Below are positions 17,346 through 49,410 of a stretch of 64,000 bases of DNA, piece after piece; within the stretch, counting starts at the first letter, position 1, and every line of letters begins with the position of its first letter. The stretch is from Micromonospora sp. NBC_01796 (GTDB taxonomy: Bacteria; Actinomycetota; Actinomycetes; Mycobacteriales; Micromonosporaceae): the NCBI RefSeq assembly GCF_035917455.1, contig NZ_CP109078.1, forward strand, positions 6,060,001-6,124,000, written 5' to 3'. The notes under the pieces were generated by a model. That model made no database searches. It was not told the DNA's origin and worked only from the letters and a program-made list of their open reading frames with translations. The translations under genes were made by a program, and so were the position numbers.

Positions 17346-17584
17346 CCGACACGGACCTCCGGCGGGTGGTGTACGAGGTGATCATGGAGATTCTTCCGTC
17401 GGTTTCCGACGAGCAGATCTCCGGTGACAAACACCTGCGCGACCTCGGTGCCGACTCGATCGACCGGGTCGAGATCATCCTTGGCCTCCGCGAGCGGCTC
17501 GGCATCGACGAGCCCCTCGGCAGCTTCAGCGACCTGCCCGACATCGACCGTCTGGTCGGGTTCCTCCGGGAGGTGACCACGTGA
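17342..17584 (+). CDS. Donor acyl carrier protein (LnmL-like)
   Basis: An 80-residue discrete carrier protein with the phosphopantetheine motif LGADSIDRVE. It starts at ATG 17342 within the stop of the LnmK-like gene, and its own TGA overlaps the GTG start of the HMG-CoA-synthase-like gene, so the three are translationally coupled. The position predicts that it holds the propionyl (or acetyl) group made by the LnmK-like enzyme and presents it to the HMGS-like enzyme. The sequence IDRVEIILGLRERLGI, rich in acidic residues around the serine, is typical of donor ACPs in beta-branching cassettes. The partner assignment is from gene order. Confidence 0.92.
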   Translation: MTDTDLRRVVYEVIMEILPSVSDEQISGDKHLRDLGADSIDRVEIILGLRERLGIDEPLGSFSDLPDIDRLVGFLREVTT

Positions 17585-24740: not shown

Positions 24741-24841
24741 CTGACCACGTTGCGCACTACTGCGCAGACGTCGCGGTCCCCGAACGGGTGATACTGCGTC
24801 ATCTTTGACCCGGTTCCCACCCGATGACGGAGCGCCGACTC

Positions 24842-26262: not shown

Positions 26263-27000
26263 TCAGGGGTACACGGCGAGGTCCGCCCGCAACGCCTCGG
26301 CGAGCTCCGGAGGCGGTCCGGCGAGGTAGAAGTGCCCCCCGCTGAACACCCGGAGGCTGAAGTCCCCGGTGGTGACCTCCGCCCAGGAGCGCATCTCGGT
26401 CACGTCGACCTCGGGGTCCGCGTCGCCGGTGAGGGCCGACACCGGACACCGCAGCGGCGGGCCCGGCAACTGCTGGTACGTCTCGTTCACCCTGAAATCG
26501 GCCCGTAGCCCCGGCAGGAACACGGCCATGAGTTCCTTCTGCCGCAGCACCTCCTCCGGTGTCCCGCCCATCGCCGCGACCGCCGGCAGGAACTCGTCCG
26601 GGCCCAACGCGTGCAGCTCCGGCCGGCGGGCGGGCAGGTGCGGTGCGCGCCGGCCGGAGACGAACAGCCGGCTCGGCCCCTGCGTGATCGTGGACAGGCG
26701 CCGGGCCACCTCGTAGGCGACCACGGCACCCATGCTGTGACCGAACAGCGCGTACGGGCGGTCGGCGTGTGACCGGATCGCCTCGGCCAGCGGTGGTACG
26801 ACGTGCTCGACCGCGGTCAGCGGCGCCTCCCGCAGGCGCGACTCCCGACCGGGCAGCACGACCGGGCAGACGCCGATACGCGGCTCCAGCGCCGTACGCC
26901 ACGACCGGAAGAAGGAGCCCCCACCGCCGGCGTGCGCGACGCAGTACAGCAGCAGTGACGCGTCATCCGTGCCGGGCTCCTTGATCCAGGGGCTCGTCAT
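26263..27000 (-). CDS. Type II thioesterase
   Basis: A 245-residue alpha/beta hydrolase of the external thioesterase family: YCVAHAGGG at the N-terminus (oxyanion region), nucleophile elbow GHSMG, and a C-terminal His in FSGGHFYL. Enzymes of this type remove stalled or wrong acyl groups from carrier domains. It starts at ATG 27000, overlapping the NRPS stop (ATGA), so it is translationally coupled to the NRPS. The leinamycin cluster has an equivalent editing thioesterase. Because Ser is the nucleophile, it is distinct from the Cys-type shuttle at 18813. Confidence 0.95.
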   Translation of the reverse strand: MTSPWIKEPGTDDASLLLYCVAHAGGGGSFFRSWRTALEPRIGVCPVVLPGRESRLREAPLTAVEHVVPPLAEAIRSHADRPYALFGHSMGAVVAYEVARRLSTITQGPSRLFVSGRRAPHLPARRPELHALGPDEFLPAVAAMGGTPEEVLRQKELMAVFLPGLRADFRVNETYQQLPGPPLRCPVSALTGDADPEVDVTEMRSWAEVTTGDFSLRVFSGGHFYLAGPPPELAEALRADLAVYP

Positions 27001-30000
27001 CAGTGGTCCTCCTCGGCTCGCAGCACCACGTGCCCCACCGAGCCGGTCGCGCCGACCGCGGTGACGAGGGCACGCAACGGAGTGCCGGTCCACGGCTGCG
27101 ACCGGTCCACGAACCGTACCGGCAGCGCGTCGAGGTCGACCAGCGGATTCGGCGTGGTCGCGACGAGGGTGGGGACGAGCCTGCGGTGCCGTAGCTGCAG
27201 CAGCACCTTGGTCAGCTGGGCGAGCCCGGAGGCGGCCTCCGCGTGACCCAGGTTCGGCTTCAGCGTACCGATCGGCACCCGGCGGCCCTCCGCGGTCGGA
27301 CCGAAGAACCGGCCGACGGCCTCGACCTCGGCGGCGTCGGCCAGGACCGCGCCGGAGGCCGCACACTCGACGTACCCGACGTCGGCCGGCGCGACCCCGG
27401 CCTGACGCACGGCCTCGGCCAGCGACCGGGCCAGCGTGGCCGCGTCCGGGGTGCCGAAACGGCTCGTCCCGCCGGTGTGCCCGACCCAGGCGCTCTCCAC
27501 CACCCCGTCTACCCGGTCGCGGTCCCGGCGTGCGTCGCCGAGCCGGCGCAACAGCAGGGCACCGGCGCCTTCACCGGGCGACCAGCCGCCCGCGTCGGCG
27601 TCCAGCGCACGGGCCGCCGGCACCTCGGCGACCAGGCCCAGGCCCCGTAGCACCGACGCGTGGTACGGGTGCAGCAGCAGGTTGACCGCGCCGACCACGG
27701 CGGCGTCGCAGTCGCCGCGTTCGAGGCTCTCGACGGCCTGTCGCAGCGCGGTCAGCGCGGAAGAGCACGAGGTGTCGACCGCGACGCTCGGACCACGGAA
27801 GTCGAAGGCGTGGGAGATCCGGTTGGCGATCTCCGAGCCGGTGCCGGAGATGCGGGCCGCGCCGCCCTCGCGCCACCGGTCGGTCCCGACCAGGCGATGG
27901 TCGTGCCACATCACGCCGACGAACACCCCGACGCGCCCCAGCGAGCCGGCGGTGTGGCCGGCGTCCTCCAGGCACTCCCATACGACCTCCAGCAGGAGGC
28001 GCACCTGCGGGTCGAGGGTGGCGGCCTCGGCCGGTGCGATACCGAAGACCATGCTGTCGAAGGTCTCCACGTCGCGCAGGTAGCCGCCGGGAGGTCCGGC
28101 GCCGCGGCCGGGTGGCGGCGCCGCGATCGCGCAGTGGCCGGCGTCGAGGTTGCGCCACAGGGCCGCCACGTCGTCGGCGCCGGGGTAGCGGCCGGCCAGC
28201 CCGACCACCGCGATCCCGTCCGGCTCCTCCGGGTACGGCGTGCGCGCCCTGCCCGTGGGTGCCTCGTGTGTCGCCGGTCCGCACAGGAAGGCCTGCTGGA
28301 ACACATGACCCTGGTCCAGCCGCAGGGCGGCGCGGACCGGCGCCGTGGCGACCCCGCCGACGGGGCACAGGCCCAGCCCACGGGCAGCCTGGGCACTCAT
28401 CAGCAACTGGCCGAGGTAGCCGGCCTCCAGCGCCAGGTACCGCTCGGTGTCCTCGCCGTACAACGGGCGGATCGCCTTCTCCTGACCGACCAGGAACAGC
28501 TCGAAGGCGGCCCGGTCGTAGATCGGCCGGTTGTAGACGAAGTGCGCGGAGCGGTCCAGGCCGTCGCCGTCGCCGATGCGGCGCAGGGTGTGCTCGTCGG
28601 GGTGGTAGTAGTACACCCCGGCCGGCAGCCCGGCGACCCGGTCCGCCGGTACGTGGACGTAGACCTGCACACCGTAGGTGTCGCCGGCCGACGGGTACAG
28701 GCGCCGCGTCCGGTCCCCGTCGGGCAGCGGGCGCAGCAGGGCGAGCAGCGACGCCAGCGCGGCGAACGGCACCGTACCGTCGAGGAAGTCACGTCTCGTG
28801 CCCCGCCACCGGTACTGCCGTACGTCGGGGTGTTCGTCGGGCAGCGGTACCGCCTCGCCGTCGTCCCGCAGCTCCCGTCGGGCCGAGGCGAAGGCGGCGC
28901 GGGCGGTGGGGGAGAGCACGTCGACGGTCTCCGGGTCCGGGTCCGGTGTCGACGCGGCCGGGGCGGTCCCGACCGGCACCCCGGACACGTGGGCGGCGAT
29001 GCCGTCGACGGTCGGGTTCTCGAGCAGCACGGCCACCGGCACCCGGGTGCCGAACCGCTCCTGCAGCCGCATCGACATCTGCACCATGGTGAACGACGTG
29101 GCACCCTGGTCCCACAGGTCCGCAGCGGGATCGACGGCCTCGCCGAGCAACTCGCCGACGAGGTCGGTGAGCGCCTGCCGGATGCTCTGCCCGCCCGGTG
29201 ACGCGGCCGGTGCCGCCGTGGTCAGCGGCCAGGGCAGCCGGTCGCGGTCGAGCTTGCCGTTGGGCGTGGCGGGGAACTGGTCGAGCACCGCCAGATGGTT
29301 CGGCACCATGTAGTCGGGCAGCGTCTGCGCGGCGAAGGCGCGCAGCTCGCGTACCCCCGGTGTGGTACCGCCGGCGGCCAGGACGTAGGCGACCACCTTG
29401 CGCTCGCCGCCCTCGTCGCGCGCCACGACCACCGCGTCCTTCACCTCCGGATGGCTCCGGAGCCGGTGCTCGATCTCGCCGAGCTCCACCCGGAAACCGC
29501 GGATCTTCACCTGGTGGTCGGACCGGCCGAGGAAGGTGATGTTCCCGTCGGGGAGGAAGCTCGCGCGGTCCCCGGTGCGGTACATCCGGTCGCCGGGCGG
29601 CCCGAACGGGCACGGTACGAACCGGTCCTCGGTGAGATCCGGCCGGTTGCGGTAGCCCAGGCTGAGCACCTCGCCGGCGATGAAGAGATCGCCCTCCGCA
29701 CCGATCCGGCAGGGCCGCAGATCGCCGTCGAGGACGTAGTACCGGGCGTTGTCGATCGGTCGGCCGTACGGGATGCTGCGCCACCCCGGGTCGACCGCAC
29801 CGACCCGGAACCAGTTCGACCACACCGTGGCCTCGGTGGCGCCGCCGAGGTTGATGACGTCGGCGGCGGTGAAGCAGGCGCGCAGGTCGTCGGGGAGCGC
29901 CAGCGGCATGTAGTCACCGCTGAGGAACACCAGCCGCAGGTCGGTCGTACCGGGCCGTCCCCGGTGCGCCGCGGTCAGCGGCACGACGTGCGCCAGGGTG

Positions 30001-33000
30001 GTCGGCGCGGAGTTCCAGAACGAGACCGGCTCGTCCAGCAGTACGTCGAGCAGCAGCGCCGGATCCTTCTGCTGCTCCTCGTCCGCGACGTAGATCGACG
30101 CGCCGAAGCAGAGCAGCCCGAGAAGGTCGAACACGGACAGGTCGAAGCCGAGCGACGTCACGCACAGTCCGACGTCGTCCGGCCCGAAGTGGAACGTCCG
30201 GCGGGCCCAGTGCAGGAGGTTGTGCACCGCCCGGTGGGTGACCGCGACACCCTTCGGTCGCCCGGTGCTGCCCGAGGTGAAGATGATGTACGCCGTGGCC
30301 AGGTCGTCGGTGACGGGTGCCGGGTCCGGCACGGCGGCGGTGCCGATCCGGTCGGCGTGGACCACCGCGATCCCGGCCGGCATCAGGTCGGACGCGTGCA
30401 GTGCCAGGTCGGACGTGGTGACGAGGGCGGTCGCGCCCGCGTCGGCCAGCATCGCCGCGGCCCGTGCCGGCGGAATCGACGGCTCGACCGGCAGGTAGGC
30501 GCCGCCGGCCTTGAGCACGCCGTAGACGGCGGCGACCATCATCGGCCCGCGGGCGACGCTGATCCCGACGACGGACTCGGCGCCGACCCCCGCGGCGCGC
30601 AGCCGTACGGCGATGCGGTTCGCGGCCGTGTTGAGCTCGGCGTAGGTCATGGTGCCGCCGCGCCAGCGTACGGCGACCGCCTCGGGTCGGGCCCGCGCGT
30701 GCGCCTCGAACGCCAGCTGCACCGGCCCCTCGTGCGGGAACTCCACGGCGGTGTCGTTCCACCCGTAAACGACGTCGGACAGTTCGGCCAGGCCCGTCAG
30801 CGCGGCCCGGTACGCGTCGAAGATCCGGTTCAGGGCGGGGTCCGGGATCGCGCCCTCGGTGCAGTCCCAGAACAGCCGCAGCTCGTCGTCGCCCTCGTCG
30901 ATGGCGATGCAGTCCAGCGCCACGTCCGGCGTACACGTCAGCCACGGCCCGGCGGTCACCCCGTCGGGCAGCGGCGCGCCGGCGAGTTCCAGCAGGCCGG
31001 TACAGACGACCGGGTAGCCGGATCCGCCGTCACGCATCCGGCGCAGCACCAGCCGGCGCAGTTCGGCGAGACCGGACGCGCCGTCCGCGGCCGCGTCGGC
31101 GGTGAGGTGCCGGTCGTAACGGTCGGCGAGGTCGAGCAGCGGCTCCCCCGGCTCACCACGCCGCAGCCAGCTCAGCGCGGTCAGCTCCCCCGGCCGGTAC
31201 GGCTCGGACTGTGGCGTCCAGCGCACCAGCGGTACCGCGAAATCGTCCGGGAAGTGTGTGCCGAGCGCCTCGGTGAGCGCGGCCAGGAGGATCGCGTCGA
31301 GAGCGACCCCCCGTTCCCGGGCCAGCCGTCGGATCCGGGACCAGCCCGGCACCCGGGCGGTGAGCCGCCGTCGGGGCCCGTTGGTCGTCCCGATCGACGG
31401 GCCGGGTGGCAGGTCGGCCAGGTGTTCGCGCCAGTACCGCATGGCGTGCGGGTCCGGCGCCGCCTGCGGGAGACGCGACGGTACGGCGGTCGGCACCGTC
31501 GCGTCCGGGCCGGCGTAGCGGCGCATCAGCTCGCGCAGCATGAGGTGGATGCTGCGCCCGTCGGCAACCAGCAGGTCCACGGTGACGTGCACGGTCGCCG
31601 AGCCTGCGCCGTCCACACCGACCCGCAACTCGCCCTGCGGGAGCCGGCCGAGCGGGTACGCCCGGCTCACCATGTCCCGCTGCGGCTCGGCCTGCTCCGC
31701 AACGTCCGTCACGGGGATGTGCCACCGGTCCGGTACGGCGTCGTGCACGATCAGGGACCCGTCGTGGGTGACGACCGTCCGCAGCGGCTCGTACGCGGCG
31801 AGCAGGCCCAGCCAGGCCGCTTCCAGGCGGGGCAGGTCGATCCGGCCGACCTCGAAGCCGTGCACGACCTGGCAACCGGTCCACGGCCCGGTGCCGCCGG
31901 TGATCCGGGCCACGAAGTACGCCTGCTGCAGGTCGTTGAGCGGCCGGGCGCCGTCGGTCCCGACGGGCCGGAGCCAGCGCAGCGTGTTGACGAACCAGGC
32001 GAAGGCCCCCGCCACCACACCCGGCCGGAACGCGCCCTCCAGGACGTCCCACCGTACGTGCAGCTCGCCGTCGCGTTCGGCGATCTGGGCATCGAGCGTG
32101 ACGCCGGTCGTCTGGCTGACCGCGTACCTCCCGTCGGCCCCGCCGCCGCCGATGTCCAGCAGGCTGGTGAAGATCACCGGCAGGTCGGCCGGTAGGGGCA
32201 GCCGTCGGGACCGCAGCTCGCGCAGTGCCGCCACGCCGGGCACGTCACCGTGCTCCAGGTCCTGGCGCAGCCGATCGTGCACGGACCGTGCGGCCTCGGC
32301 GAGTGGCAGGCCGGTGGTCGGCTCCGCGACGAACACCGAGGTGGACGTGAACGGCCCCACCACGCTCGCCGTGTCCGCGGGCAACCAGAGCCGGCTGTTC
32401 GTGGTGAGCACGAGCGAACACCGGGGATCCGCGGCACTTCGCTGGAGTGCCTCGGCGAAGACGGTGAGGACCAGCGCGGTCGGGGAGACGCCGAGGTCGC
32501 CGGCAAGGGAGGTGACCGTGTCCCACTCACGTCCGGTCAACGCCGCCGTGTACGGCACCCGAGTGGTGCCGGGCTCCCCGTCGGACGCGGGCAGGCCGGG
32601 GCCGGGGGGCAGGTCGCGCAGCCGGTCGGCCCAGTACTCCAGGCCGTCGCGGTATCCGGGGGCGTCGCGGTGCCGGGCCAGCGCCATGCCGAGGTCGCGC
32701 AGGCCGTGGGCCGGGTCCGGGAGGCGGTATTCCGGGTCGTCGTAGAGCCCCCACAACTGCTCGACGAGCAGCTCCAGGCCGGCTCCGTCGGTGATCATCG
32801 CGTCCACGCTCAGGTGCAGCACCCCGGAACCGTCCGCGTTCCGGGTCACCTCCATGGTCCACAGTGGATCAACCGTGGGGGTGTAACAGCGGTGGGAGAG
32901 CCGCTGCCGTACGACGGCCGCGTCCTGGTGGACCGGCATCGTCCACGCCGGCGCCCGCTCGGTGACGCGCTGGCGCCCGTCGGGCGTGAGGACCAGCCGC

Positions 33001-33464
33001 AGCGCCTCGTGGTGCTCGACGAGCCGGGCCCACGCTCCCCGCAACCGGTCCGGGTCGAGGTCGGCGACGTCGAACTCGCGGTACACGTGACATCCGGTCT
33101 GCCCGGTGCTCTTCGCCAGCAGGTACGCCTCCTGCAACGGGGTGAGCGGGAACGGCTCGTGCCGCAGGTCCGGCTCCGGGCGTACCACCGGGCGCAGCCC
33201 GCCGCCGGCCGGAGCGGCGCCGGTGGCGAGGGCGGCCAACTCGCGCGCGTTCGTGCACCGGCGCAGTGCGTCGGTCGGCAGTTCCGTACCGAGCGCGCCG
33301 CCGACCTCCAGCAGCAGCAGCGCGGCGGCGAGGGAGCTGAGTCCCAGCGACTGCAACGGCACGTCGGCGTCGACGGCGGTGCCGGGTGGCAGCACGTCGG
33401 ACAGGACGCCCAGCACGGTTTCCACGGGATCCGGGCGGGCCGAAATGGCGCTCTGCTCGTCCAT
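27000..33464 (-). CDS. NRPS-PKS hybrid: PCP-Cy-Cy-A(Cys)-PCP-Ox-KS0 (LnmI-like start)
   Basis: A 2154-residue protein, start ATG 33464 with GAGGAG upstream. Order: PCP (1-85, Ser44 in LGLSSL); Cy1 (about 100-480, DAMITDG and PVIFTSLLD); Cy2 (about 490-890, where the DxxxxD motif reads DLLVADG); A (about 900-1410); PCP (GATSF, Ser about 1456); FMN-dependent Ox domain (about 1514-1733, SagB/nitroreductase type); KS (1749-2154). Reading the A-domain pocket by alignment to PheA gives about D-L-F-N-F-S-L-V-W, closest to the cysteine code, and Cy plus Ox predict a thiazole. The KS keeps Cys1900 and NLGH, but the HGTGT motif is AASGA, so its first catalytic His is lost and it should be a non-elongating, transacylating KS0. 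The N-terminal PCP has no adjacent A domain and must be loaded in trans, probably with (chloro)threonine. Confidence 0.94.
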   Translation of the reverse strand: MDEQSAISARPDPVETVLGVLSDVLPPGTAVDADVPLQSLGLSSLAAALLLLEVGGALGTELPTDALRRCTNARELAALATGAAPAGGGLRPVVRPEPDLRHEPFPLTPLQEAYLLAKSTGQTGCHVYREFDVADLDPDRLRGAWARLVEHHEALRLVLTPDGRQRVTERAPAWTMPVHQDAAVVRQRLSHRCYTPTVDPLWTMEVTRNADGSGVLHLSVDAMITDGAGLELLVEQLWGLYDDPEYRLPDPAHGLRDLGMALARHRDAPGYRDGLEYWADRLRDLPPGPGLPASDGEPGTTRVPYTAALTGREWDTVTSLAGDLGVSPTALVLTVFAEALQRSAADPRCSLVLTTNSRLWLPADTASVVGPFTSTSVFVAEPTTGLPLAEAARSVHDRLRQDLEHGDVPGVAALRELRSRRLPLPADLPVIFTSLLDIGGGGADGRYAVSQTTGVTLDAQIAERDGELHVRWDVLEGAFRPGVVAGAFAWFVNTLRWLRPVGTDGARPLNDLQQAYFVARITGGTGPWTGCQVVHGFEVGRIDLPRLEAAWLGLLAAYEPLRTVVTHDGSLIVHDAVPDRWHIPVTDVAEQAEPQRDMVSRAYPLGRLPQGELRVGVDGAGSATVHVTVDLLVADGRSIHLMLRELMRRYAGPDATVPTAVPSRLPQAAPDPHAMRYWREHLADLPPGPSIGTTNGPRRRLTARVPGWSRIRRLARERGVALDAILLAALTEALGTHFPDDFAVPLVRWTPQSEPYRPGELTALSWLRRGEPGEPLLDLADRYDRHLTADAAADGASGLAELRRLVLRRMRDGGSGYPVVCTGLLELAGAPLPDGVTAGPWLTCTPDVALDCIAIDEGDDELRLFWDCTEGAIPDPALNRIFDAYRAALTGLAELSDVVYGWNDTAVEFPHEGPVQLAFEAHARARPEAVAVRWRGGTMTYAELNTAANRIAVRLRAAGVGAESVVGISVARGPMMVAAVYGVLKAGGAYLPVEPSIPPARAAAMLADAGATALVTTSDLALHASDLMPAGIAVVHADRIGTAAVPDPAPVTDDLATAYIIFTSGSTGRPKGVAVTHRAVHNLLHWARRTFHFGPDDVGLCVTSLGFDLSVFDLLGLLCFGASIYVADEEQQKDPALLLDVLLDEPVSFWNSAPTTLAHVVPLTAAHRGRPGTTDLRLVFLSGDYMPLALPDDLRACFTAADVINLGGATEATVWSNWFRVGAVDPGWRSIPYGRPIDNARYYVLDGDLRPCRIGAEGDLFIAGEVLSLGYRNRPDLTEDRFVPCPFGPPGDRMYRTGDRASFLPDGNITFLGRSDHQVKIRGFRVELGEIEHRLRSHPEVKDAVVVARDEGGERKVVAYVLAAGGTTPGVRELRAFAAQTLPDYMVPNHLAVLDQFPATPNGKLDRDRLPWPLTTAAPAASPGGQSIRQALTDLVGELLGEAVDPAADLWDQGATSFTMVQMSMRLQERFGTRVPVAVLLENPTVDGIAAHVSGVPVGTAPAASTPDPDPETVDVLSPTARAAFASARRELRDDGEAVPLPDEHPDVRQYRWRGTRRDFLDGTVPFAALASLLALLRPLPDGDRTRRLYPSAGDTYGVQVYVHVPADRVAGLPAGVYYYHPDEHTLRRIGDGDGLDRSAHFVYNRPIYDRAAFELFLVGQEKAIRPLYGEDTERYLALEAGYLGQLLMSAQAARGLGLCPVGGVATAPVRAALRLDQGHVFQQAFLCGPATHEAPTGRARTPYPEEPDGIAVVGLAGRYPGADDVAALWRNLDAGHCAIAAPPPGRGAGPPGGYLRDVETFDSMVFGIAPAEAATLDPQVRLLLEVVWECLEDAGHTAGSLGRVGVFVGVMWHDHRLVGTDRWREGGAARISGTGSEIANRISHAFDFRGPSVAVDTSCSSALTALRQAVESLERGDCDAAVVGAVNLLLHPYHASVLRGLGLVAEVPAARALDADAGGWSPGEGAGALLLRRLGDARRDRDRVDGVVESAWVGHTGGTSRFGTPDAATLARSLAEAVRQAGVAPADVGYVECAASGAVLADAAEVEAVGRFFGPTAEGRRVPIGTLKPNLGHAEAASGLAQLTKVLLQLRHRRLVPTLVATTPNPLVDLDALPVRFVDRSQPWTGTPLRALVTAVGATGSVGHVVLRAEEDH

Positions 33465-33578: not shown

Positions 33579-35825
33579 GTGTCTGCCAGACCGAAATCCG
33601 CCTGGGTCTTCCCGGGGCAGGGGGCTCAGCGCAAGGGGATGGGCGGCGACCTGTTCGAACGCTTTCCCGACGAGTGCGCCGCCGCCGATCGGATCATCGG
33701 TGTCCCGGTGGCCCGACTGTGCCGCGAGGACGGTCGGCTCGGCGACACCCGGTACGCGCAGCCGGCCCTGTTCGTGGTCAACGCCCTGAGCTACCTGGCG
33801 GCACGCGACGACGAGCCGCCGGACTTCCTCGCCGGGCACAGCCTGGGGGAGTACACCGCGCTGTGGGCGGCCGGTTGCCTGGACTTCGAGGCGGCGCTGC
33901 GGCTGGTGTGCCGGCGCGGCGAGATCATGGCCCGGGCCGCGGGCGGTGGCATGGTCGCCGTGGTCGGCGAGCGCCTGGACCGACTGCCCGAGGTGCTCGC
34001 CGAGGCCGGCGTCGACGACGTGGACATGGCCAACGACAACGCCGACGGGCAGGTGGTGCTGTCCGGCCCCCGGGAGTCACTGGCCGCCGCGTCGCGTGCC
34101 GTGGCCGCCGCCGGCCTGGGCCGGTGCGTGCCCCTGAAGGTCGCCGCCGCGTTCCACTCGCGGTACATGCGCGCCGCCTCGGACGAGTTCGCGGACGTGC
34201 TCGCGGGTGTGCGGTTCGCGCCGCCCCGGGTGCCGGTGATCTCGAACGTGACCGCCCGGCCGCACGACCCGGCGCTGCTTGTCGAACTCCTCGCGGTGCA
34301 GTTGCGCCGCCCGGTGCGGTGGCGCGAGACCATGGCGTACCTCGTCGACCGAGGCGTGCGGACCGTGCGCGAGCTGGGCCCGGGGCGGGTGTTGACGGAG
34401 CTGTTCCGGCCCGTGCTCGCCGCGGCACCGGCCGTCGCGGGTGCCGGGGCGTCCGAGCCGGAGCTGCCGGGGTGCCCGCAGTTCCGGGCCGACTACGGAG
34501 TCACGTCGGCGTACCTCGCGGGTTCGATGTACAAGGGGATCAGCTCGGTCGACCTGGTGTCGCGTCTGGGCAGGTCGGGGCTGCTCGGCTTCTTCGGCGC
34601 CGGTGGCTTCGACCGGGACGGGGTCGAGGCGGCACTGCGGTCGCTGACGACCGACCCCGGCCCGGGACGCTTCGGAATGAACCTGCTCGCGATGCCCGAC
34701 AATCCGGCGCTGGAGTCGGCGCTGGCCGAGCTGTACGTCCGGTACGACGTGCGGTACGTCGAGGCGGCCGGTTACCACGGCGTCACCGCGCCCCTGGTGC
34801 GGTTCCGCTTCGCCGGGGCGCACCTGGCCGCCGACGGCACCCCGGTCGCGGTGCGCCACATCGTGGCCAAGGTCTCCCGCCCCGAGGTCGCCGCGGCGTT
34901 CCTGCGCCCACCGCCGGATCCGATGCTGGCCGAGCTCGTGGCCGTGGGGGCGCTGTCGGCGGCGGAGGCGGCCGTCGCCGCACGGCTGCCGGTGAGCGGG
35001 GACCTGTGCGCGGAGGCCGACTCGGCCGGGCACACGGACGCCCGGTCGGCGCTCACCCTCGTGCCGGACCTCGCGCTCCTGCGGGACGCGGCCATGTCCG
35101 GGCACGGCTACCACAAGCGGATCCGGCTCGGCGTCGCCGGCGGACTGGGGACCCCGGAGGCGGTCGCCGCGGCGTTCGTGCTCGGCGCCGACTTCGTGCT
35201 CACCGGCTCGATCAACCAGGCCACCCCGGAGGCGGGCACCTCCGCGGCGGTCAAGGACCTGCTGGTGCAGGTCGGAATCCAGGACACCGCGTACGCCCCG
35301 GCCGGCGACACCTTCGAGCTCGGCTCCAGGGTGCAGGTGATGCGCCGTGGGACGATGTTCGCGGCCCGGGCCAACCAGCTCCTGCAGCTCTACCAGCGGT
35401 ACGACAACTGGGCCGACGTGCCGCCCACCGTCCGCGAGACCGTCGAACGGACCACTTTCCGCCGACCGTTCGAGCGGGTGTGGCAGGAGACCGAGCGGCA
35501 CTACCGCGCCACCGGCCGGGCCGTCGAGGTGGAACGGGCGGATCCACGGCGGCGCATGGCGCTGGCCTTCCGGTGGTACTTCGCGCACTCCACCAACGCC
35601 GCGTTACGCGGTGACACCGCCGAGCAGGCGAACTTCCAGGTCCACACGGGACCGGCGATGGGTGCCTTCAACCGGTACGTACACGGCACCGAGCTGGCCG
35701 ATTGGCGGCTGCGCCACGTCGACGTTATCGCCGGGGTGCTGATGCGGGGAGCTGCGGAGATCCTTCGCCGCCGCTGCCCGACGGTGACCACTAGTGAGCA
35801 GTGCAACACGCCCGACGCTGATTAG
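33579..35825 (+). CDS. Trans-acting acyltransferase-enoylreductase didomain (LnmG-like)
   Basis: A 748-residue protein: an FabD-type malonyl-CoA acyltransferase (about 5-290; FPGQGAQ, catalytic GHSLGE, AAFHSRYM) fused to a PfaD-type FMN enoylreductase (about 300-740; GVAGGLGTPEA and ADFVLTGSINQATPEAGTS). It supplies malonyl units in trans to all PKS modules here, none of which carries an AT. The ER half could reduce one enoyl intermediate in trans, since no cis ER domain is visible. Start is GTG 33579 with a poor SD and a palindrome just upstream. A TTA leucine codon at 35604-35606 (codon 676) could make translation depend on the bldA tRNA. It is divergent from the NRPS. Confidence 0.96.
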   Translation: MSARPKSAWVFPGQGAQRKGMGGDLFERFPDECAAADRIIGVPVARLCREDGRLGDTRYAQPALFVVNALSYLAARDDEPPDFLAGHSLGEYTALWAAGCLDFEAALRLVCRRGEIMARAAGGGMVAVVGERLDRLPEVLAEAGVDDVDMANDNADGQVVLSGPRESLAAASRAVAAAGLGRCVPLKVAAAFHSRYMRAASDEFADVLAGVRFAPPRVPVISNVTARPHDPALLVELLAVQLRRPVRWRETMAYLVDRGVRTVRELGPGRVLTELFRPVLAAAPAVAGAGASEPELPGCPQFRADYGVTSAYLAGSMYKGISSVDLVSRLGRSGLLGFFGAGGFDRDGVEAALRSLTTDPGPGRFGMNLLAMPDNPALESALAELYVRYDVRYVEAAGYHGVTAPLVRFRFAGAHLAADGTPVAVRHIVAKVSRPEVAAAFLRPPPDPMLAELVAVGALSAAEAAVAARLPVSGDLCAEADSAGHTDARSALTLVPDLALLRDAAMSGHGYHKRIRLGVAGGLGTPEAVAAAFVLGADFVLTGSINQATPEAGTSAAVKDLLVQVGIQDTAYAPAGDTFELGSRVQVMRRGTMFAARANQLLQLYQRYDNWADVPPTVRETVERTTFRRPFERVWQETERHYRATGRAVEVERADPRRRMALAFRWYFAHSTNAALRGDTAEQANFQVHTGPAMGAFNRYVHGTELADWRLRHVDVIAGVLMRGAAEILRRRCPTVTTSEQCNTPDAD
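35785..35800. promoter_or_regulatory. Weaker dyad operator copy, upstream of the duplicated-domain gene
   Basis: TGACCACTAGTGAGCA keeps one full TGAGCA half-site, the N4 spacing, and 10 of 12 arm positions of the operator at 24725. It lies in the last codons of the AT-ER gene and 71 nt before the next start (35871), so it could mark an internal promoter for the chlorothreonine genes. Weaker than copies 1 and 2. Confidence 0.4.
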
Positions 35826-35870: not shown

Positions 35871-36812
35871 ATGACCACGACATCGAGCCCGCCGTTCGTG
35901 TTGCCGACGGCGCAGGATCAGACGTCGCTCGCCCCGGACGCGATCCTGCACTCGGGCAACGCCGGCGTGATCGTGGAACGGGTCGGGCAGTTGCGCGCCG
36001 AGTTCCGCTCCGAGGCCCGGCAGTTCGCCCGAGAGCTGTCGGAGTACCTCAACACGAACTACGCCGGCATCATCAGCGTGTTCGTCTACGAGGAGACGTT
36101 CGGGACGAAGGACCGGCTGCACTGGCTCATGCACCTCAAGTCCCTGCATGCCTACGAGACCCTGATCCGGATGGGCAGCCAGGACGCCGGCTGGCGGGAC
36201 ATCATCATGCGCCAGCGGATCGAGCCGGAGCGCGGCGGCGGCACCTGGGACCGCATGTTCCTCGACGGCGCCCTGCACGAGACGGTGCTCATCCCGTCGG
36301 CCTTCGGGATGTACGGCACCTCCGAGGCGACACCGGACTCGGTGAACACCGACGAGGGCGCCGCCACGTTCGTGGTCCCGACCGCCCAGTTGCAGACCGA
36401 CGTACCGATCGGGGAACAGCTCAACTCCGCCACCTGCGGCATCCTCATGCACCGCACCGGCGAGCTGCGCTACGAGTTCCGCGCCGAGGGCCGGGCGTTC
36501 GCCCGCGCGCTCTGCGAGAGCTGGAACCGGGCGCTGGCCGGACACGCCACGATCTACCTGTACGAGGAGGCGTTCGGTCAGTCCGACCGCATCCACCACT
36601 TCATCCACCTCAAGTCGCTCAGCTCGTACTACACGCTGATGGGCGTCCGGGCGATGAGCGATCCCGCCACCCGCGAGGTGTTCACCAAGCAGTGGATCCC
36701 GCAGGAGAAGGGCGGCGGTGGGTGGGAGCGCATGTTCGTCCAGTCGAGCCTCGCTGATCTCTCGCTCACGCCGCAGCACTGGGGCATGTACGCCACCAAG
36801 ACGGAGCGCTGA
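35871..36812 (+). CDS. Unknown protein made of two tandem copies of one domain
   Basis: A 313-residue soluble protein built from two homologous halves (about 10-160 and 163-310). Both halves carry the same ordered motifs: VxPTAQ, LRxEFRxExRxFARxL, YEExFGxxDRxHxxxHLKSL, GGGxWxRMF and GMYxT. The conserved His, Asp, Arg and acidic residues in the middle motif look like an active or binding site, and the strand-helix pattern would fit a ferredoxin-like alpha/beta-barrel dimer, here fused. I do not recognise a named family or a role. It starts at ATG 35871 (AAGGAG six bases upstream) and ends 3 nt before the A-T gene, so it is in the chlorothreonine operon and probably works with it. Confidence 0.85.
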   Translation: MTTTSSPPFVLPTAQDQTSLAPDAILHSGNAGVIVERVGQLRAEFRSEARQFARELSEYLNTNYAGIISVFVYEETFGTKDRLHWLMHLKSLHAYETLIRMGSQDAGWRDIIMRQRIEPERGGGTWDRMFLDGALHETVLIPSAFGMYGTSEATPDSVNTDEGAATFVVPTAQLQTDVPIGEQLNSATCGILMHRTGELRYEFRAEGRAFARALCESWNRALAGHATIYLYEEAFGQSDRIHHFIHLKSLSSYYTLMGVRAMSDPATREVFTKQWIPQEKGGGGWERMFVQSSLADLSLTPQHWGMYATKTER

Positions 36813-36815
36813 GCC

Positions 36816-38618
36816 ATGCCCGTTACGGACTGCCTGCACACCGCGTTCTCCCGTCGCTCCGCCGAACTTCCGCACCGGATCGCGGTCGTCTGCGGTGATG
36901 ACCGGGTGACGTACAGCGAGCTTGAACGGCTGTCGGACGAGCTCGCCGCGCGACTGCGCCGGTACGGAGTCACCCGCGGCGTGCACGTCGGTGTCTGCGT
37001 CGACCGTTCCGTCGACCTGGTCGTGTGCCTGCTGGCGGTGCTGAAGGCGGGCGGCGCCTACGTGCCCGTGGACGCCGACCATCCCGCGCCCCGGGTGGCC
37101 GCCGTGCTGTCCGACAGCAGGGTCCCCCTGACCGTCGCGGTGACCCGGACCGCGGACGCGCTCGCCGAGTGGTCCGGCCCGGTGCTCTGGGCGGACGACC
37201 TGGAGTCCGACGACGAGGACCCGCCCACCGCCTCCGCCGACGCGCCGGTCGACGCAGGCCCCGACGACCCCGCGTACGTCATCCACACCTCCGGCTCCAC
37301 CGGCGCGCCCAAGGGTGTCGAGGTCGCGCACCGCAGTGTGGTGGCGCTGCTCGACCGTGGCGGCGAGCTGTTCGGCTTCGACCAGACGGACACGTGGACC
37401 CTGTTCCACTCGGTCGGGTTCGACTTCTCGGTGTGGGAGCTGTGGGGGGCGCTGCTGTTCGGCGGCAGGGTCGTCGTCGTACCGACGAGCACCGCCCGTA
37501 CCCCGGCGCTGATGCTGGACCTGCTGCGCCGCGAGCGCGTCACGGTGCTGAACCAGACACCGTCGGCGTTCCGGCAGCTCGCCGCCGCGGACCTGGCTTC
37601 GGACGGGCGCAGCGATCTGCGTCTCGTGGTGTTCGGTGGCGAACGGCTCGACGTCGCGATCCTGGCGCCGTGGATCGCCCGGTACGGCGACGAGGCCCCA
37701 CAGCTCGTCAACATGTACGGCATCACCGAGGTGACCGTGCACGCCACGTACCGCCGGATCACCGCCGCGGACCTCGACCGGCCGTCGGTGAGCCCGATCG
37801 GCCGGGCGCTTCCCGGCGTACGGATCGAACTGCGCGACGAGGCGGGCAACGCGCTGCCCGACGGCACCCCCGGCGAGCTGTACGTCGGGGGCACCGGGGT
37901 GGCGCTGGGCTACCTGCACCGTCCCGAGCTGACCGCCGAACGGTTCGTCGAGGCCGGCGGCGAGCGCTGGTACCGCTCCGGCGACCGTGCCGTACACGCC
38001 GACGGGGAACTGACCTATCTGGGTCGGGTCGACCGGCAGTTGAAGGTCCGCGGCTACCGGATCGAGCCGGGCGAGGTCGAAGCCGCCGTTCTCGCACATC
38101 CCGGCGTGGGGACCGCGCTGGTCACCTCGGACGACTTCGGCGAAGGTGACGTACGCCTGGTGGCCTACGTCGCGCCGCCGCCCGGTGCCGACCCGGTCGA
38201 CCTCACCGAGGCGGAGCTGGCCGGGACGGTGGAGCACCTGCCCGGCTACCTGCGGCCGTCGCGTTTCCACGTGGTCGCCGACATCCCGCTCACCGCCCAG
38301 GGCAAGGCCGACCTGGCCGCGCTGGGTGGCGTACGGGCCGAGCCCGAGCCGGCACCGGCCGGGGACACCGACGGGGACACCGTGTCGGTGGTGAAGGCGA
38401 TCGCCGACGAGGTGCTGCGGCGGGACGTACCCGTGGACGGGGACCTGTTCGACCTCGGTGCCACGTCGCTGGCGCTCACCCGGATCGTCGCGATGGTGAA
38501 CGACCGCTTCGGCACCACACTCACCGGCGCCGAACTGGAGGACCCGACGATCGGATGCCTTGCCGAGGTGGTCGGGGCAACGCGCCGGGACGACGCACTG
38601 CAACAGATTGGAGGCTGA
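36816..38618 (+). CDS. Threonine-type adenylation-thiolation didomain (SyrB1-like)
   Basis: A 600-residue A-T protein. The A domain has the P-loop motif [11 protein letters not shown], the [13 protein letters not shown] and YRSGDRAV core motifs, and the A10 Lys in TAQGKADL. The T domain (about 520-590) has [11 protein letters not shown]. Aligning to PheA, the pocket reads D-F-W-N-V-G-M-V-H, nine positions differing from the threonine code (DFWNIGMVH) only by Val for Ile. SyrB1 has the same A-T build, loads L-threonine on its own T domain and presents it to the halogenase SyrB2. Here a SyrB2-like gene starts 2 nt after this stop. There is no condensation domain, so the aminoacyl group must be passed on, presumably by the SyrC-like protein at 18813. 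Confidence 0.93.
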
Positions 38619-38619
38619 C

Positions 38620-39585
38620 ATGGCGGACGACTACGCACTCAGCGCGCAGGAGACGGCCGACTTCCACCGCAACGGCTACTTCGGCCCGTTCACGGTGTAC
38701 GAGGTCGACGACATGAAGCGCCGGTGGCGACGCGAGCGGCTGCGCCTGATGGACCGCTCCGACGCGATCTACCAGGACGAGGCGGCCCTGTCGGGCAACA
38801 CGAACATCTCCAACTACGACCGGCACATGGACAACGAGTTCCTGGCCGACCACATCTGCCACCCGCGCATCGTCGACCGGGTCGCCAGCGTGCTCGGCCC
38901 CGACGTGCAGTGCTGGCGCTCGGAGTTCTTCCCGAAGTACCCCGGCGACGAGGGCACCGACTGGCACCAGGCCGACACGTTCGCCAACGCGTCGGGCAAG
39001 CCGCAGATCGTGTGGCCGGGCGAGGCCAAGGACTTCGGCGGGACGATCACCGTCTGGACCGCCTTCACCGAGGCGAACGAGGAGACCGGCTGCCTGCAGT
39101 TCATCCCGGGCACCCACCAGACGATGTTCTACGACGAGACCAAGCGCATGCACTACGACGCCGCCTCCATCAACAGTCTGGAGAAGGAGGGCGTGCGCCG
39201 CGGCTTCTTCGGGTACGACTACCGGGAGCTGCAGATCGACCCGGACTGGAAGCCCGACGAGTCCAGTGCGGTGTCGATGGTGATGCGGCCGGGTCAGGCC
39301 ATCATGTTCTGGTCCACCCTGATGCACGCGTCGCTGCCGCACCTCGGGAACACCGAGGAGATGCGTCTGGGATTCGCCGGCCGGTACGTGCCGACGTCGG
39401 TGAACGTCTATCCGGACACGGACATCATCGAGGAGTACGGCGGCGCCGTGTCGCTGGCGCGCTGGGGCTCGGTCCTGGTCTCCGGCACCAACGAGAATCC
39501 CCACAACCGGATGGCGACCGAGACGACGCGGGGCCACGGGTTCCCCCGGCGCGACCGTTCCGGCGCGGGGGCCTCGCCGGCATGA
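38620..39585 (+). CDS. SyrB2-like Fe(II)/2-oxoglutarate halogenase
   Basis: A 321-residue protein starting at ATG 38620 (GGAGG five bases upstream). It belongs to the phytanoyl-CoA dioxygenase superfamily, but the metal motif is His116-Gln117-Ala118 ([10 protein letters not shown]) with the second His236 (MHASLPH). Ala in place of the usual Asp/Glu leaves a site for chloride and is the diagnostic feature of SyrB2-type halogenases; His116 and Ala118 even fall at the SyrB2 numbers. Other long stretches agree with SyrB2 as I remember it ([44 protein letters not shown]). Expected reaction: chlorination of the C4 methyl of threonine bound to the A-T protein encoded just upstream. The number of chlorines added cannot be told. 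Confidence 0.95.
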
Positions 39586-39812
39586 CGGTCTTCGAGGTCG
39601 TCAAGGCCAGCCTCATCGAGGTCGTCCCGGAGGTCGACCCGGACAGCGTCACCGCCGGCCGCACCCTGACCGACCTCGGCTGCACCAGCATCGACCGGGC
39701 CGAGGTGGTGACGCTGGCGATGGAGCGGCTCGGGATCGTGGTGCCGATCGCGGAGTTCCAGGACGTCAACGACCTCGACCGGATCGTCGAACTGCTGCGG
39801 AAACACGTGTGA
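39582..39812 (+). CDS. Second discrete acyl carrier protein (beta-branching donor type)
   Basis: A 76-residue carrier protein starting at ATG 39582 inside the halogenase stop (ATGA), ending in GTGA with the next gene. The attachment motif is [12 protein letters not shown] (Ser in CTS). Its tail, [21 protein letters not shown], resembles donor ACPs of the AcpK type that work with decarboxylating ketosynthases. The overlap with a Cys-to-Ser ketosynthase gene makes the pairing very likely: malonyl-ACP to acetyl-ACP. It is distinct from the LnmL-like ACP at 17342. A role as an acceptor for chlorothreonine is the main alternative. Confidence 0.9.
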
Positions 39813-41050
39813 GCACCGTCGTCGCGGTGACCGGGACCGGGATCGTCTGCGCGATCGGCGCGGACGTCCCGGCGTTCACCGCGGCGCTGCGATCCGGCCG
39901 CAGCGGCGTCACCGCGACCCCGGACGGGCTCGCCGCGCCGATCACCGGCTGGTCGTTCCCCGACGCGGTGAGCGGCCTGCCGGAGCCGTTGCGCCGCAGG
40001 GCGATGCGGGCGGCGGCGCGGGCGCCCATGCCGATCCGGGCCGCCGTCGCCGCCGCCCTGCAGGCGTGGACGGCGGCCCGGCTGCCCGAGGCACCGGTCC
40101 CCGACCACCGGGTCGGGGTGGTCGTGGCAGGGCACAACCTGACCGCCCGCTACACGCACGACCTGTTCCGGAACTTTCTGGACAGTCCGGCGTACCTGCC
40201 GGCGCGCTTCGCCCTGCACGTTCAGGACACCGACCACGTCGGGACCCTCAGCGAGGTGCTGTCGGCCACCGGTGAGGGCTTCACCGTCGGCGGTGCCTCC
40301 GCCAGCGGCAACGTCGGCATCGTGCACGCCGCCCGGCTGGTCGCCTCCGGTGCCGTGGACTGCTGTGTGCTCGTCGGCGCGGTCACCGAGCTGACCCCGA
40401 TGCACCGCCGAGGCTTCGCCGTGCTGGGCGCGTTGGCCGAGCCTGGCGGGGACCCGGCGGCCGCGTGTCGGCCGTTCGACCTCGACCGGCGCGGTTTCGT
40501 GCCCGGCGAGGCCGCCGCGGCGCTGGTGCTGGAGTCCGCGACGTCGGCGGCCCGCCGGGGGGCCGTTGCCGTGGCGACCGTCGCCGGGCATGCCCTCGGG
40601 CTGGACGGCAACCGGCTCGCCGACCCGAACGCCGGCGGCGAGGCCCGTGTGATCGGCGCCGCGCTGGCCGCCGCCGGCGTGGACCGGCACGAGGTCGACT
40701 ACGTCAACGCCCACGGTACGGGCTCCCGGTTGGGCGACGAGACGGAACTCGCCGCGCTGCACGCCGTACTCGGCGACGCCGTCGGCCGACCCTGGGTCAA
40801 CGCGACCAAGGCGCTGACCGGCCACTGTCTCGGTTCGGCCGGCGTGGTCGAGGCGGTCGCCACGGTCGCGCAACTGGCCGGCGGTTTTGTGCACCCCAAC
40901 CCGAACCTGGACCGTCCGGTGGATGACCGCATCCGGTTCGCCGGCGCCGCACCGCAGCCCGCCCGGCTGCGGTACGCGCTGTCCAACGGATTCGGCTTCG
41001 GAGGCATCAACTCGGCCGTGGTCCTCGCCCGTACCGCCGATGGAGGTTGA
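39809..41050 (+). CDS. Decarboxylating ketosynthase with Cys-to-Ser active site (PksF/CurC type)
   Basis: A 413-residue FabF-like ketosynthase. Where condensing enzymes have the nucleophilic Cys, this protein has Ser164 in VGGASASGN, while both histidines remain (NAHGTG and LTGHCLG). This pattern is typical of the KS of HMGS cassettes, which decarboxylates malonyl-ACP to acetyl-ACP instead of condensing. It overlaps the preceding ACP by GTGA. With the HMGS-like enzyme at 17581 it would give an acetate-derived beta-branch, but the cluster also has LnmK for propionate. It could alternatively help loading or be a relict. Confidence 0.9.
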   Translation: MSTVVAVTGTGIVCAIGADVPAFTAALRSGRSGVTATPDGLAAPITGWSFPDAVSGLPEPLRRRAMRAAARAPMPIRAAVAAALQAWTAARLPEAPVPDHRVGVVVAGHNLTARYTHDLFRNFLDSPAYLPARFALHVQDTDHVGTLSEVLSATGEGFTVGGASASGNVGIVHAARLVASGAVDCCVLVGAVTELTPMHRRGFAVLGALAEPGGDPAAACRPFDLDRRGFVPGEAAAALVLESATSAARRGAVAVATVAGHALGLDGNRLADPNAGGEARVIGAALAAAGVDRHEVDYVNAHGTGSRLGDETELAALHAVLGDAVGRPWVNATKALTGHCLGSAGVVEAVATVAQLAGGFVHPNPNLDRPVDDRIRFAGAAPQPARLRYALSNGFGFGGINSAVVLARTADGG

Positions 41051-41056
41051 TCGAAG

Positions 41057-42244
41057 ATGTACGACGTCATCGTCGTCGGGGCCCGTTGTGCGGGCGCGCC
41101 GACCGCCATGTTGTTCGCCCGCGGGGGGCACCGGGTCCTGCTGCTCGACCGCACCGGTTTCCCGGCCGACAAGCTCTCGACCCTGTACATCCAGCAGCCG
41201 GGCGTCGCGCGGCTGGCCCGGTGGGGCCTGCTCGACGCCGTACGGGCCACCGGCTGCCCGCCGCTGGACCACGTCGTGTACGAACTGGGCGACGTACGCG
41301 TCGAGGGCTGCAGCAGCGGGATCGACGGTGTCCGGGCGGCGTACGCACCGCGCCGGAGCGTCCTCGATCCGCTGCTGGCCGACGCCGCCGTGCAGGCGGG
41401 GGTCGAGTTCCGCGACGACTGCCGGGTGACCGACCTGCTGTGGGAGGACGGTCGGGTGGTCGGGGTGCGCACCGACCAGGGGGAGGAGCGTGCCGCTCTC
41501 GTCGTCGGCGCCGACGGGATGCGGTCGACCGTCGCGGAGTTGACCGGCGCGCCGAAGACGACCGAGCACCCGCCGCTCACCTGCGCCTACTACGCGTTCT
41601 GGGACGGGCCGAAGACGCACTTCGAGATGTACGAGGGTGACACCGGCTGGGTGTCGGCGGTGCCGACCAACGACGGGGCCGTCCTCGTCGCCGCCTACTA
41701 CCCGCAGCAGCGTTTCGACGAGGTCCGGCGCGACGCGTCCACCGCCTACCTCGACAACGTGCGGACCAACGCCCCCCGGTTGTTCGAGCAGATCGAGCGC
41801 AGCCGGCAGGTCGGCAAGGTGCAGGGCACCGGCGACCAGCAGAACTTCTTCCGCCGCGCGCACGGCCCCGGCTGGGCTCTTGTCGGTGATGCCGGCCACC
41901 ACAAGGATTCGCTGACCGCACGGGGCATCGCGGACGCGTTCATGCAGGCGGACCTGCTCGTCGAGACCGTCGGCGACACCCTGACGGACCGGCCGCGGCT
42001 CGACGCGGCCCTCGCCGCCTACGACCGCGAGCGCGAGCAGCGGCTCACCGAGAACTACCAGGCGACCCTCCTGGTGGCGCAGGCCGAGGCCCGCGACAAA
42101 CGCCGCGCCCTGCTGCGCGCGGTCGGCAGCAGCCCGGAGATGACCACCCGCTACTTCGACGCCGTGGCCGGCATCATCCCGCTACGCGAGCTTTATACCC
42201 CGGAGTTGCTCGCGCTGATGGCCAGTCCGGCGACGGCCACCTGA
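41057..42244 (+). CDS. FAD-dependent oxidoreductase (monooxygenase/reductase family)
   Basis: A 395-residue flavoprotein: N-terminal Rossmann motif VVGARCAGAP (GxxxxG), a middle VGADGMRSTV, and the C-terminal FAD motif GWALVGDAGHHKD. This is the geranylgeranyl-reductase / aromatic-hydroxylase superfamily. The flavin-halogenase motif WxWxIP is not intact (it reads WVSAVP), so I do not call a halogenase. GGAGG at 41042-41046 precedes ATG 41057, six bases after the KS stop, so it belongs to the same operon. Likely a tailoring hydroxylase, epoxidase or desaturase; the substrate is unknown. Confidence 0.88.
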   Translation: MYDVIVVGARCAGAPTAMLFARGGHRVLLLDRTGFPADKLSTLYIQQPGVARLARWGLLDAVRATGCPPLDHVVYELGDVRVEGCSSGIDGVRAAYAPRRSVLDPLLADAAVQAGVEFRDDCRVTDLLWEDGRVVGVRTDQGEERAALVVGADGMRSTVAELTGAPKTTEHPPLTCAYYAFWDGPKTHFEMYEGDTGWVSAVPTNDGAVLVAAYYPQQRFDEVRRDASTAYLDNVRTNAPRLFEQIERSRQVGKVQGTGDQQNFFRRAHGPGWALVGDAGHHKDSLTARGIADAFMQADLLVETVGDTLTDRPRLDAALAAYDREREQRLTENYQATLLVAQAEARDKRRALLRAVGSSPEMTTRYFDAVAGIIPLRELYTPELLALMASPATAT

Positions 42245-47251: not shown

Positions 47252-47665
47252 TCAGACGAGTTCGTCGAGAAGGTCGTACTGCAACGTGAAGGTGTGGCTG
47301 CCGTCCTCGAGCTTGCGCATCGTGGCGGTGCCCTGGATGCCGGCGAGGCCGTCGGTGCCGGTGCCGGGCACGATGTGCCAGTCAGCGCCGCCCTCCTCGT
47401 CGCTCATCAAGCCGACGGCCTGGTGTTGGAGGATGAAACTGCCCTTGGCGCCGCCGACCGTCACCTCGATGCGTTCGTGGCCCACATACCCCGCACCACC
47501 CTTGCCGTAGGCGAAGAGGAACTGGGCGCGGCTGGTGCCTTCGAGCTCGCCGGTGTACGTCTTGGTGACCGATGCCCGGGAAAACTTCATGCCGTCAGGG
47601 GACTCCTGCCACTCATCTTCGTCCCAGGAGTCCAGGGTGAATGAGGCGGTCGCGGTCGTGCTCAC
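47252..47665 (-). CDS. DUF3224-family protein
   Basis: A 137-residue soluble protein of the DUF3224 type: an all-beta pattern starting ATASFTLDSWDEDEW, with GYVGHERIEVTVGGAKGSF and VPGTGTDGLAGIQGTATM, the conserved segments of this family. Function of the family is unknown; a small barrel binding a ligand is plausible. Start is GTG 47665 with a weak AAGAGA SD. It ends at the shared terminator. It lies between the cluster and a VOC gene on the same strand and is probably not part of the assembly line. Confidence 0.88.
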   Translation of the reverse strand: MSTTATASFTLDSWDEDEWQESPDGMKFSRASVTKTYTGELEGTSRAQFLFAYGKGGAGYVGHERIEVTVGGAKGSFILQHQAVGLMSDEEGGADWHIVPGTGTDGLAGIQGTATMRKLEDGSHTFTLQYDLLDELV

Positions 47666-47698: not shown

Positions 47699-48064
47699 TC
47701 AGTCCCAGACCGAGGTGCAGAACGGGTGCCCGGCCGGGTCGAGATAGACCCGCCATTTTGCGTTGCCGGGCTGGTCCGTGGGCTTCGTGGCGCCCAGGTG
47801 GAGCAGTTCGGCCTCGGCTGCGTCGAGATCGGCGACGGCCAGGTCGAGATGCAGTTGCTGGGTCACTGCCTGTCCGGGCCACTCGGGTGGCCGGTAGTCC
47901 TCGACGCGTTGCATTGCGAGGGCGACCCCGTCACCGTTGCTGAGAAAGCCGCTGTTCTCCGACACGTGCGCCGGCTTGAGACCCGCGACGTCCCGGTAGA
48001 AATCCACCAGTGGGGCGATGTCGGCACAGTCCAGCGTCACTGCGGCCCAGCGACCGACAGCCAT
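47699..48064 (-). CDS. VOC-superfamily protein (glyoxalase/bleomycin-resistance fold)
   Basis: A 121-residue VOC protein with the paired beta-alpha-beta-beta-beta pattern: VTLDCADIAPLVDFYRDVAG at the N-terminus and QQLHLDLAVADLDAAEAELL, KWRVYLDPAGHPFC in the second half. Possible metal ligands are His and Glu in these motifs. Members range from glyoxalase-like enzymes to drug-binding resistance proteins. With a sulfur-containing, reactive product nearby a binding or resistance role is conceivable but unproven. It ends 34 nt before the DUF3224 gene start and both may be one transcript. Confidence 0.88.
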   Translation of the reverse strand: MAVGRWAAVTLDCADIAPLVDFYRDVAGLKPAHVSENSGFLSNGDGVALAMQRVEDYRPPEWPGQAVTQQLHLDLAVADLDAAEAELLHLGATKPTDQPGNAKWRVYLDPAGHPFCTSVWD

Positions 48065-49386: not shown

Positions 49387-49410
49387 GCGGCGGTACGGGT
49401 GGAGAACTCC

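Follow-up and report, generated by a model that had tools for sequence, protein, structure and literature searches.

Chlorothreonine loading in described pathways

In Pseudomonas, the syringomycin proteins SyrB1, SyrB2 and SyrC follow the loading logic that we propose below for an actinomycete cluster. The start unit of leinamycin is D-Ala. Halogenases of the CytC3 and Thr1 types are also found in Streptomyces; we know of none tied to a leinamycin-type assembly line.

The closest described system is the largimycin (lrg) cluster of Streptomyces argillaceus (MIBiG BGC0001853), a member of the antitumour leinamycin family. It has been proposed, with mutant evidence, that LrgS loads threonine, LrgH chlorinates it and LrgY transfers it; chlorinated compounds build up in mutants of other lrg genes, and halogenase mutants yield non-chlorinated ones (PMC9396626). 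The native largimycins nevertheless carry no chlorine but an epoxide or hydroxyl at C18/C19, the halohydrin being proposed to turn into an epoxide (PMC9396626). This dehalogenation is proposed to precede release from the PKS, and the passages of PMC13200230 that deal with it name no enzyme; LrgB is listed among the function-unassigned proteins whose study may explain the chlorine loss (PMC9396626). As to the wider family, ‘halogen’ and ‘chlor’ have no occurrence in the main text of PMC8479088.

An initial annotation of the DNA analysed here stated that no described leinamycin-family pathway was known with this set of genes. That statement was wrong, since the same three parts are described for largimycin in the passages of PMC9396626 cited above; it has been removed here and replaced by a testable one. 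The set is thus already published, and our locus is a further, somewhat different member of the family, whose remaining interest lies in the differences of its sub-clade.

A leinamycin-type cluster in Micromonospora sp. NBC_01796

The window is a stretch of 64,000 nucleotides from contig NZ_CP109078.1 of this strain, and it cuts an lnm-type cluster of about 72 kb, which starts about 21 kb upstream of the window and whose conserved block ends, on the other side, at position 51333. The upstream part encodes an AMP-ligase-like protein (named from its sequence, outside the Pfam scan), a second HMGS, a Na/H exchanger, a Crp regulator, a second AT-ER, an ECH, a second DUF6039 protein and two PKS proteins. 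The features within the window are collected in Table 1.

Table 1. Features of the window discussed in the text; positions are counted from the first nucleotide of the window.
Feature	Position	Strand	Basis or remark
Main PKS, LnmJ-like; ECH and methyltransferase domains, terminal DUF-SH (beta-eliminating lyase)-TE	1..16413 (start at about -4430, upstream)	+	
LnmK, LnmL (ACP) and LnmM (HMGS); C3 propionyl-type branch	16410..18816	+	Pfam
SyrC/LrgY-like aminoacyl shuttle, alpha/beta hydrolase; predicted nucleophile Cys197	18813..19955	+	
CYP107-type P450, PikC/EryF-like	23403..24641	-	
BioA-like class III aminotransferase	24824..26203	+	
Type II thioesterase, LrgN-like	26263..27000	-	
NRPS-PKS start protein, LrgI/LnmI-like: PCP1-Cy-Cy-A(DLFNFSLVW)-PCP2-oxidase-KS	27000..33464	-	Pfam; Cy-Cy by our reading of the sequence
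N-terminal PCP1, presumed chlorothreonine acceptor (limits approximate)	33225..33422	-	Motif LGLSSL
Trans-acting AT-ER, LnmG/LrgG-like	33579..35825	+	Pfam
DUF6039 protein, copy a	35871..36812	+	Found in lnm-type clusters with or without an adjoining halogenase
Stand-alone A-T protein, LrgS/SyrB1-like; predicted substrate L-Thr	36816..38618	+	Pfam AMP-binding, AMP-binding_C, PP-binding; code DFWNVGMVH
SyrB2-type non-haem Fe/2-oxoglutarate halogenase, LrgH-like	38620..39585	+	phmmer, NCBIfam, motif, tree
Donor ACP, LrgA-like; acetyl-derived beta branch	39582..39812	+	
Decarboxylating KS, LrgD-like	39809..41050	+	GGASASGN at the expected active-site Cys (our reading)
FAD oxidoreductase, LrgO candidate (oxime)	41057..42244	+	68-70% identical to one in largimycin-type clusters
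DUF3224 protein	47252..47665	-	DUF3224 gene also in the cluster of the L016 genome
Small vicinal-oxygen-chelate (VOC, Glyoxalase_6) protein, 121 aa, LrgB-like	47699..48064	-	

The assignment to the lnm type rests on a DUF-SH-TE terminal module, LnmK/L/M, a trans-acting AT and an NRPS start with heterocyclisation and oxidase domains; the context further includes an AT-ER, two HMGS proteins, and a free ECH as well as an ECH domain. The main PKS ends with carrier domains, an LPG_synthase_C-like stretch, a beta-eliminating lyase and an alpha/beta hydrolase domain, of which we infer the LPG_synthase_C-like stretch to be the ‘DUF’ and the last hydrolase domain the TE of the DUF-SH-TE layout described for the family in part of PMC8479088. 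The window shares with leinamycin, guangnanmycin and weishanmycin the DUF-SH-TE end, LnmK/L/M, the AT-ER and the Cy-A-PCP-Ox start, described in part in PMC8479088.

A predicted chlorothreonine loading set

The three genes of the proposed loading set proved to have the coordinates and features first assigned to them, as judged from Pfam domains, specificity code and motifs. Reading by motif anchors returned the same A-T pocket, D-F-W-N-V-G-M-V-H, which is identical to the code in the largimycin-type loci L013, L015 and L016 (loci and genomes carry our L and G numbers), with 53-54% identity between the A-T proteins. We read DFW[N/S][V/I]GMVH as a threonine code. A stand-alone A-PCP protein with a Thr-type code, encoded next to the halogenase gene, is the arrangement of SyrB1 and LrgS; among the best single-domain matches was the A domain 5n9w, which we take to be Thr1.

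SyrB2-type halogenases have HxA/G in place of the HxD of the facial triad; here the HxA motif at 116-118 noted earlier is present, and H236 joins H116 and A118. Its best solved relatives by phmmer are SyrB2 (2fct, E 4e-144) and CytC3 (3gja, E 7e-126), it shares 64-66% identity with Pseudomonas homologues, and it scores 456 bits against the NCBIfam model TIGR01762, ‘chlorinating enzyme’ (cut-off 226). Assignment as a halogenase by chance is excluded, and the enzyme is predicted to chlorinate C4 of carrier-bound threonine. As for the shuttle, the Cys nucleophile reported for it was found as Cys197 in G-L-C-G-G, where Ser is usual; a cluster-encoded alpha/beta hydrolase with a Cys nucleophile corresponds to SyrC and LrgY, and its role in transfer is predicted. 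A point against this reading is that the shuttle gene follows lnmM, 17 kb away from that of the A-T protein. The other features support the presence of a complete, predicted SyrB1/SyrB2/SyrC-type set within an lnm-type cluster. The three protein types are those of syringomycin, which is a lipopeptide, whereas the assembly line here is of the leinamycin polyketide type.

Relatives and the sub-clade of the window

To place the set among its relatives, one halogenase scan of genome contigs was carried out, and 80 of the 228 related stretches were kept. Within these 80 loci, the residues H, A and H are present throughout, the code DFW[N/S][V/I]GMVH occurs in 69, and the shuttle was found in 65 in the available DNA, each time with the Cys nucleophile. 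An AT-ER and a DUF6039 protein both lie within 10 kb in 16 of the 80; L005 and L006 appear to be two records of a single strain, which leaves 15 genomes. For LnmK, 48 of the 80 loci were submitted and 46 genomes, without that of L005, were searched, 26 of which have it; judged from coordinates, on the assumption of a common contig, LnmK also lies less than 25 kb from the halogenase in L008, L010, L022, L024, L026 and L027. The recurrence in relatives shows that the combination is not peculiar to this strain.

In a halogenase tree of 80 rows (L006 dropped, the window added), the enzymes that we had grouped as lnm-linked come together in a single part (99/93). It comprises 33 rows, including 7 from outside our groups; L025, L033, L047 and L053 had been placed in these groups by neighbourhood rather than by an LnmK verified on the same contig. 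Within the tree, the window clusters with L004, L003, L021, L007 and L005 (100/91). L003 and L021 match its gene order over 20 kb, whereas L005, next in the tree, differs.

The sub-clade of the window, five genomes in all, includes Micromonospora marina, two Saccharothrix and Actinokineospora bangkokensis. The M. marina cluster (L103-L106), carried by strain DSM 45555, matches the window in gene order over its whole length and makes this strain a possible one for tests. The A. bangkokensis cluster (L107-L110) has the same order except that HMGS2 lies between ECH1 and DUF6039; neither a VOC nor a DUF3224 gene was recognised in it, and the stretch analysed showed no AMP ligase, Crp regulator or exchanger gene.

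In five further loci (L025, L026, L027, L033 and L053) the nearest A domain reads DIWQSTA.., which is not a Thr code; LnmK is linked by coordinates for L026 and L027. This group possibly uses another halogenated starter.

The NRPS start protein and the proposed pathway

Pfam recognised two PP-binding stretches and one Condensation stretch in the start protein; a second cyclisation-type region and two D-x4-D motifs come from our own reading of the sequence. As noted earlier, the protein opens with a PCP that has no A domain of its own: the LGLSSL carrier motif is at the N-terminus and a single A domain follows downstream. The code of this A domain, DLFNFSLVW, is presumably one for cysteine. It was found in 4 of 4 sub-clade loci with the NRPS in reach and also in L014, L019 and L041, so that it is no hallmark of the sub-clade; L017 has DLFNLSLVW, L020 has DLFNCALVW, and the largimycin-type loci L013 and L016 have DLFNAAMVW. 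An LrgC3 equivalent was considered as the cause of the altered code. The genomes of L013, L015 and L016 have equivalents, but so does that of L017, and that of L020 has none; with codes taken from L013, L016, L017 and L020 and none for L015, the pattern was not clean, and this candidate was set aside.

Because the A code is of the Cys type, a thiazole is likely, which supports this part of the initial proposal of a thiazole polyketide primed by a chlorinated amino acid; that the product would be chlorinated is not supported as stated. The largimycin authors call the LrgI A domain Cys-like, although the ring made is an oxazole, according to the relevant part of PMC13200230; therefore the A code alone is no proof of a thiazole.

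Taken together, the genes very probably serve to load chlorothreonine in an lnm-type pathway that resembles the one for largimycin. The A-T protein would activate L-Thr and carry the product on its own carrier domain, the Fe/2-oxoglutarate halogenase would chlorinate C4 of the carrier-bound Thr, and the Cys-nucleophile shuttle would pass 4-Cl-Thr to PCP1. Coupling with cysteine and formation of the thiazole would then fall to the NRPS and chain extension to the trans-AT PKS, and the halohydrin would later become an epoxide, a diol or another substituent.

Comparison with largimycin-type clusters

We compared the window with lrg-type loci, of which L013, L015 and L016 were matched by gene order, and not with the lrg sequence itself. 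The published order, E-M2-F-G-(DUF6039)-S-H-Y-I-J-K-L-M1-A-D-N, is present as a whole in G401 and G400 (loci L016 and L015) and holds in the visible part of L013, L017 and L020. The window does not have this order, its NRPS, M2, F and Y being elsewhere. As far as the passages of PMC9396626 describe the lrg cluster, the window has in common with it the S/H/Y loading set, an AT-less NRPS-PKS, LnmK/L/M1, the donor ACP and decarboxylating KS, a second HMGS, ECH1 and the FAD oxidoreductase that is the LrgO candidate. The differences are that the A code is DLFNFSLVW in the window and DLFNAAMVW in L013 and L016, that in the window the NRPS is on the other strand, the shuttle gene follows lnmM and the loading genes are scattered, and that the window sub-clade adds a second AT-ER, a BioA-like aminotransferase, a B12-rSAM protein, a methyltransferase and an oligopeptide-type transporter.

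At the thresholds applied, the window genome yielded no close orthologue of the L016 equivalents of the three P450s LrgC1, LrgC2 and LrgC3, which were matched by P450 class. The P450 of the window was rejected as an LrgC2 orthologue: the best match of the genome to the LrgC2 equivalent lies elsewhere, with 42%. The FAD oxidoreductase is 68-70% identical to the enzyme of the L013, L015, L016, L017 and L020 genomes and has counterparts of 74-88% in all 4 sub-clade genomes searched; none of the genomes of L011, L014, L019, L041 and L051 gave a match this close. We regard it as the likely counterpart of LrgO, which forms the oxime; if this is right, the pathway of the window should also give an oxime. 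With predicted chlorothreonine loading and a Cys-type A domain, and without close orthologues of the largimycin-type P450s, the five-genome sub-clade offers a natural comparison for two questions about largimycin, namely chlorine removal and oxazole formation.

Fate of the chlorine

The VOC gene adjoins the DUF3224 gene, and the cluster of the L016 genome contains members of both families too. Taking linkage as the same contig number and a distance of less than 40 kb from lnmK, 10 of 21 genomes have the VOC gene linked to the cluster, and it is therefore no universal partner. In both Saccharothrix genomes it is about 35 kb distant from lnmK in the opposite direction, which puts it at the edge of the cluster or outside, and no linked copy was found in Actinokineospora. 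The Glyoxalase_6 family is a common one, with 7 matches in the window genome. Since the linkage is partial, the place variable and the family common, the gene is a lead rather than functional evidence; perhaps it is like LrgB.

The chlorine is cryptic in largimycin, and therefore a chlorinated end product is not to be assumed here. The initial annotation had stated that the product would be chlorinated, which is not supported, as largimycin has its chlorine removed and the window has an LrgB-like VOC gene (PMC9396626, in the passages concerned). We consider a cryptic chlorine more likely than a kept one, because the one studied relative behaves in this way and has its loading, oxime and beta-branch genes in common with the window; the halohydrin would then probably be an activated group, giving an epoxide, a diol or another substituent as in largimycin. 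Retention, which would make the end product a thiazole polyketide primed by chlorothreonine, is a tentative alternative. It would fit the lack of close orthologues of the three largimycin-type P450s, the Actinokineospora cluster with no linked VOC gene, and the Pfam scan, which covered the cluster genes other than the AMP ligase and some small ones upstream and gave none of them a dehalogenase name. It would also fit the passage of chlorinated intermediates along the largimycin assembly line (PMC9396626, in part). Against it stand the loss of chlorine in the sole studied relative, as the passages cited from PMC9396626 and PMC13200230 have it, and the VOC and LrgO-like genes common to the window and the largimycin-type clusters. 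We regard as doubtful the broader idea of a separate leinamycin-family branch that makes chlorothreonine and cysteine thiazoles, with the chlorine kept or lost by a non-largimycin route and the extra BioA serving as self-resistance or as an amination tool for the product.

Two other outcomes are highly improbable in our view. Halogenases of the SyrB2 fold can hydroxylate misplaced substrates, and the Fe enzyme might thus hydroxylate threonine instead of chlorinating it; however, Ala118 takes the place of the facial-triad carboxylate, as it does in 80 of 80 loci, and the 456 bits were obtained against a chlorinating-enzyme model. CmaC closes the ring in coronamic acid biosynthesis, and the VOC enzyme of the cluster might convert the chlorinated residue into a cyclopropane in the same manner. 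Zn-dependent VOC enzymes for cyclopropanation with halogen loss are indeed on record in part of PMC9396626, but the protein here is a 121-aa Glyoxalase_6 member from a family common in this genome, and the conserved LrgO-like gene points to conversion of the amine into an oxime, a step that a quaternary alpha carbon would not allow.

Other genes of the cluster

The BioA-like protein scores 442 bits against TIGR00508 (cut-off 405) and is the second copy in the genome over this cut-off, the other bioA, at G000:C1:79635, scoring higher. All 5 sub-clade genomes searched have a copy placed in the cluster, which the cluster of the L016 genome lacks. An antibiotic network around the biotin pathway, with self-resistance, has been reported (PMC13336041); the copy in the cluster may serve self-resistance or tailoring.

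There are two DUF6039 proteins in the window cluster, copy a and one in the upstream stretch (L083:8592-9473), and such a pair was seen in other lnm-type clusters too. By position they are probably LnmH and LnmE; the word DUF6039 does not occur in the literature searched. Copy a abuts the A-T gene and was suspected to be the missing dehalogenase. This was rejected because lnm-type clusters carry two copies where the region is in view, the stretch of G249 included, and because in that stretch copy a lies directly before the NRPS with no halogenase between them. Only one copy lies within 10 kb in L008, L010, L022 and L024. An AlphaFold model repeats the order strand-helix-strand-strand-helix in both halves, and its mean pLDDT of 54 makes it too poor for a fold search.

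The window cluster has two trans-acting AT-ERs, one of them upstream (L083:5648-7753); in G401, the largimycin-type cluster gave only a single AT-ER gene. The M50-type peptidase-like protein at 20190-21452, below the Pfam cut-off, has counterparts of 66-75% in the sub-clade and one of 44% near the lnm cluster of G243. The methyltransferase and the B12-binding radical SAM protein at 48646-51333 are 76-91% conserved in the sub-clade genomes where they are in view.
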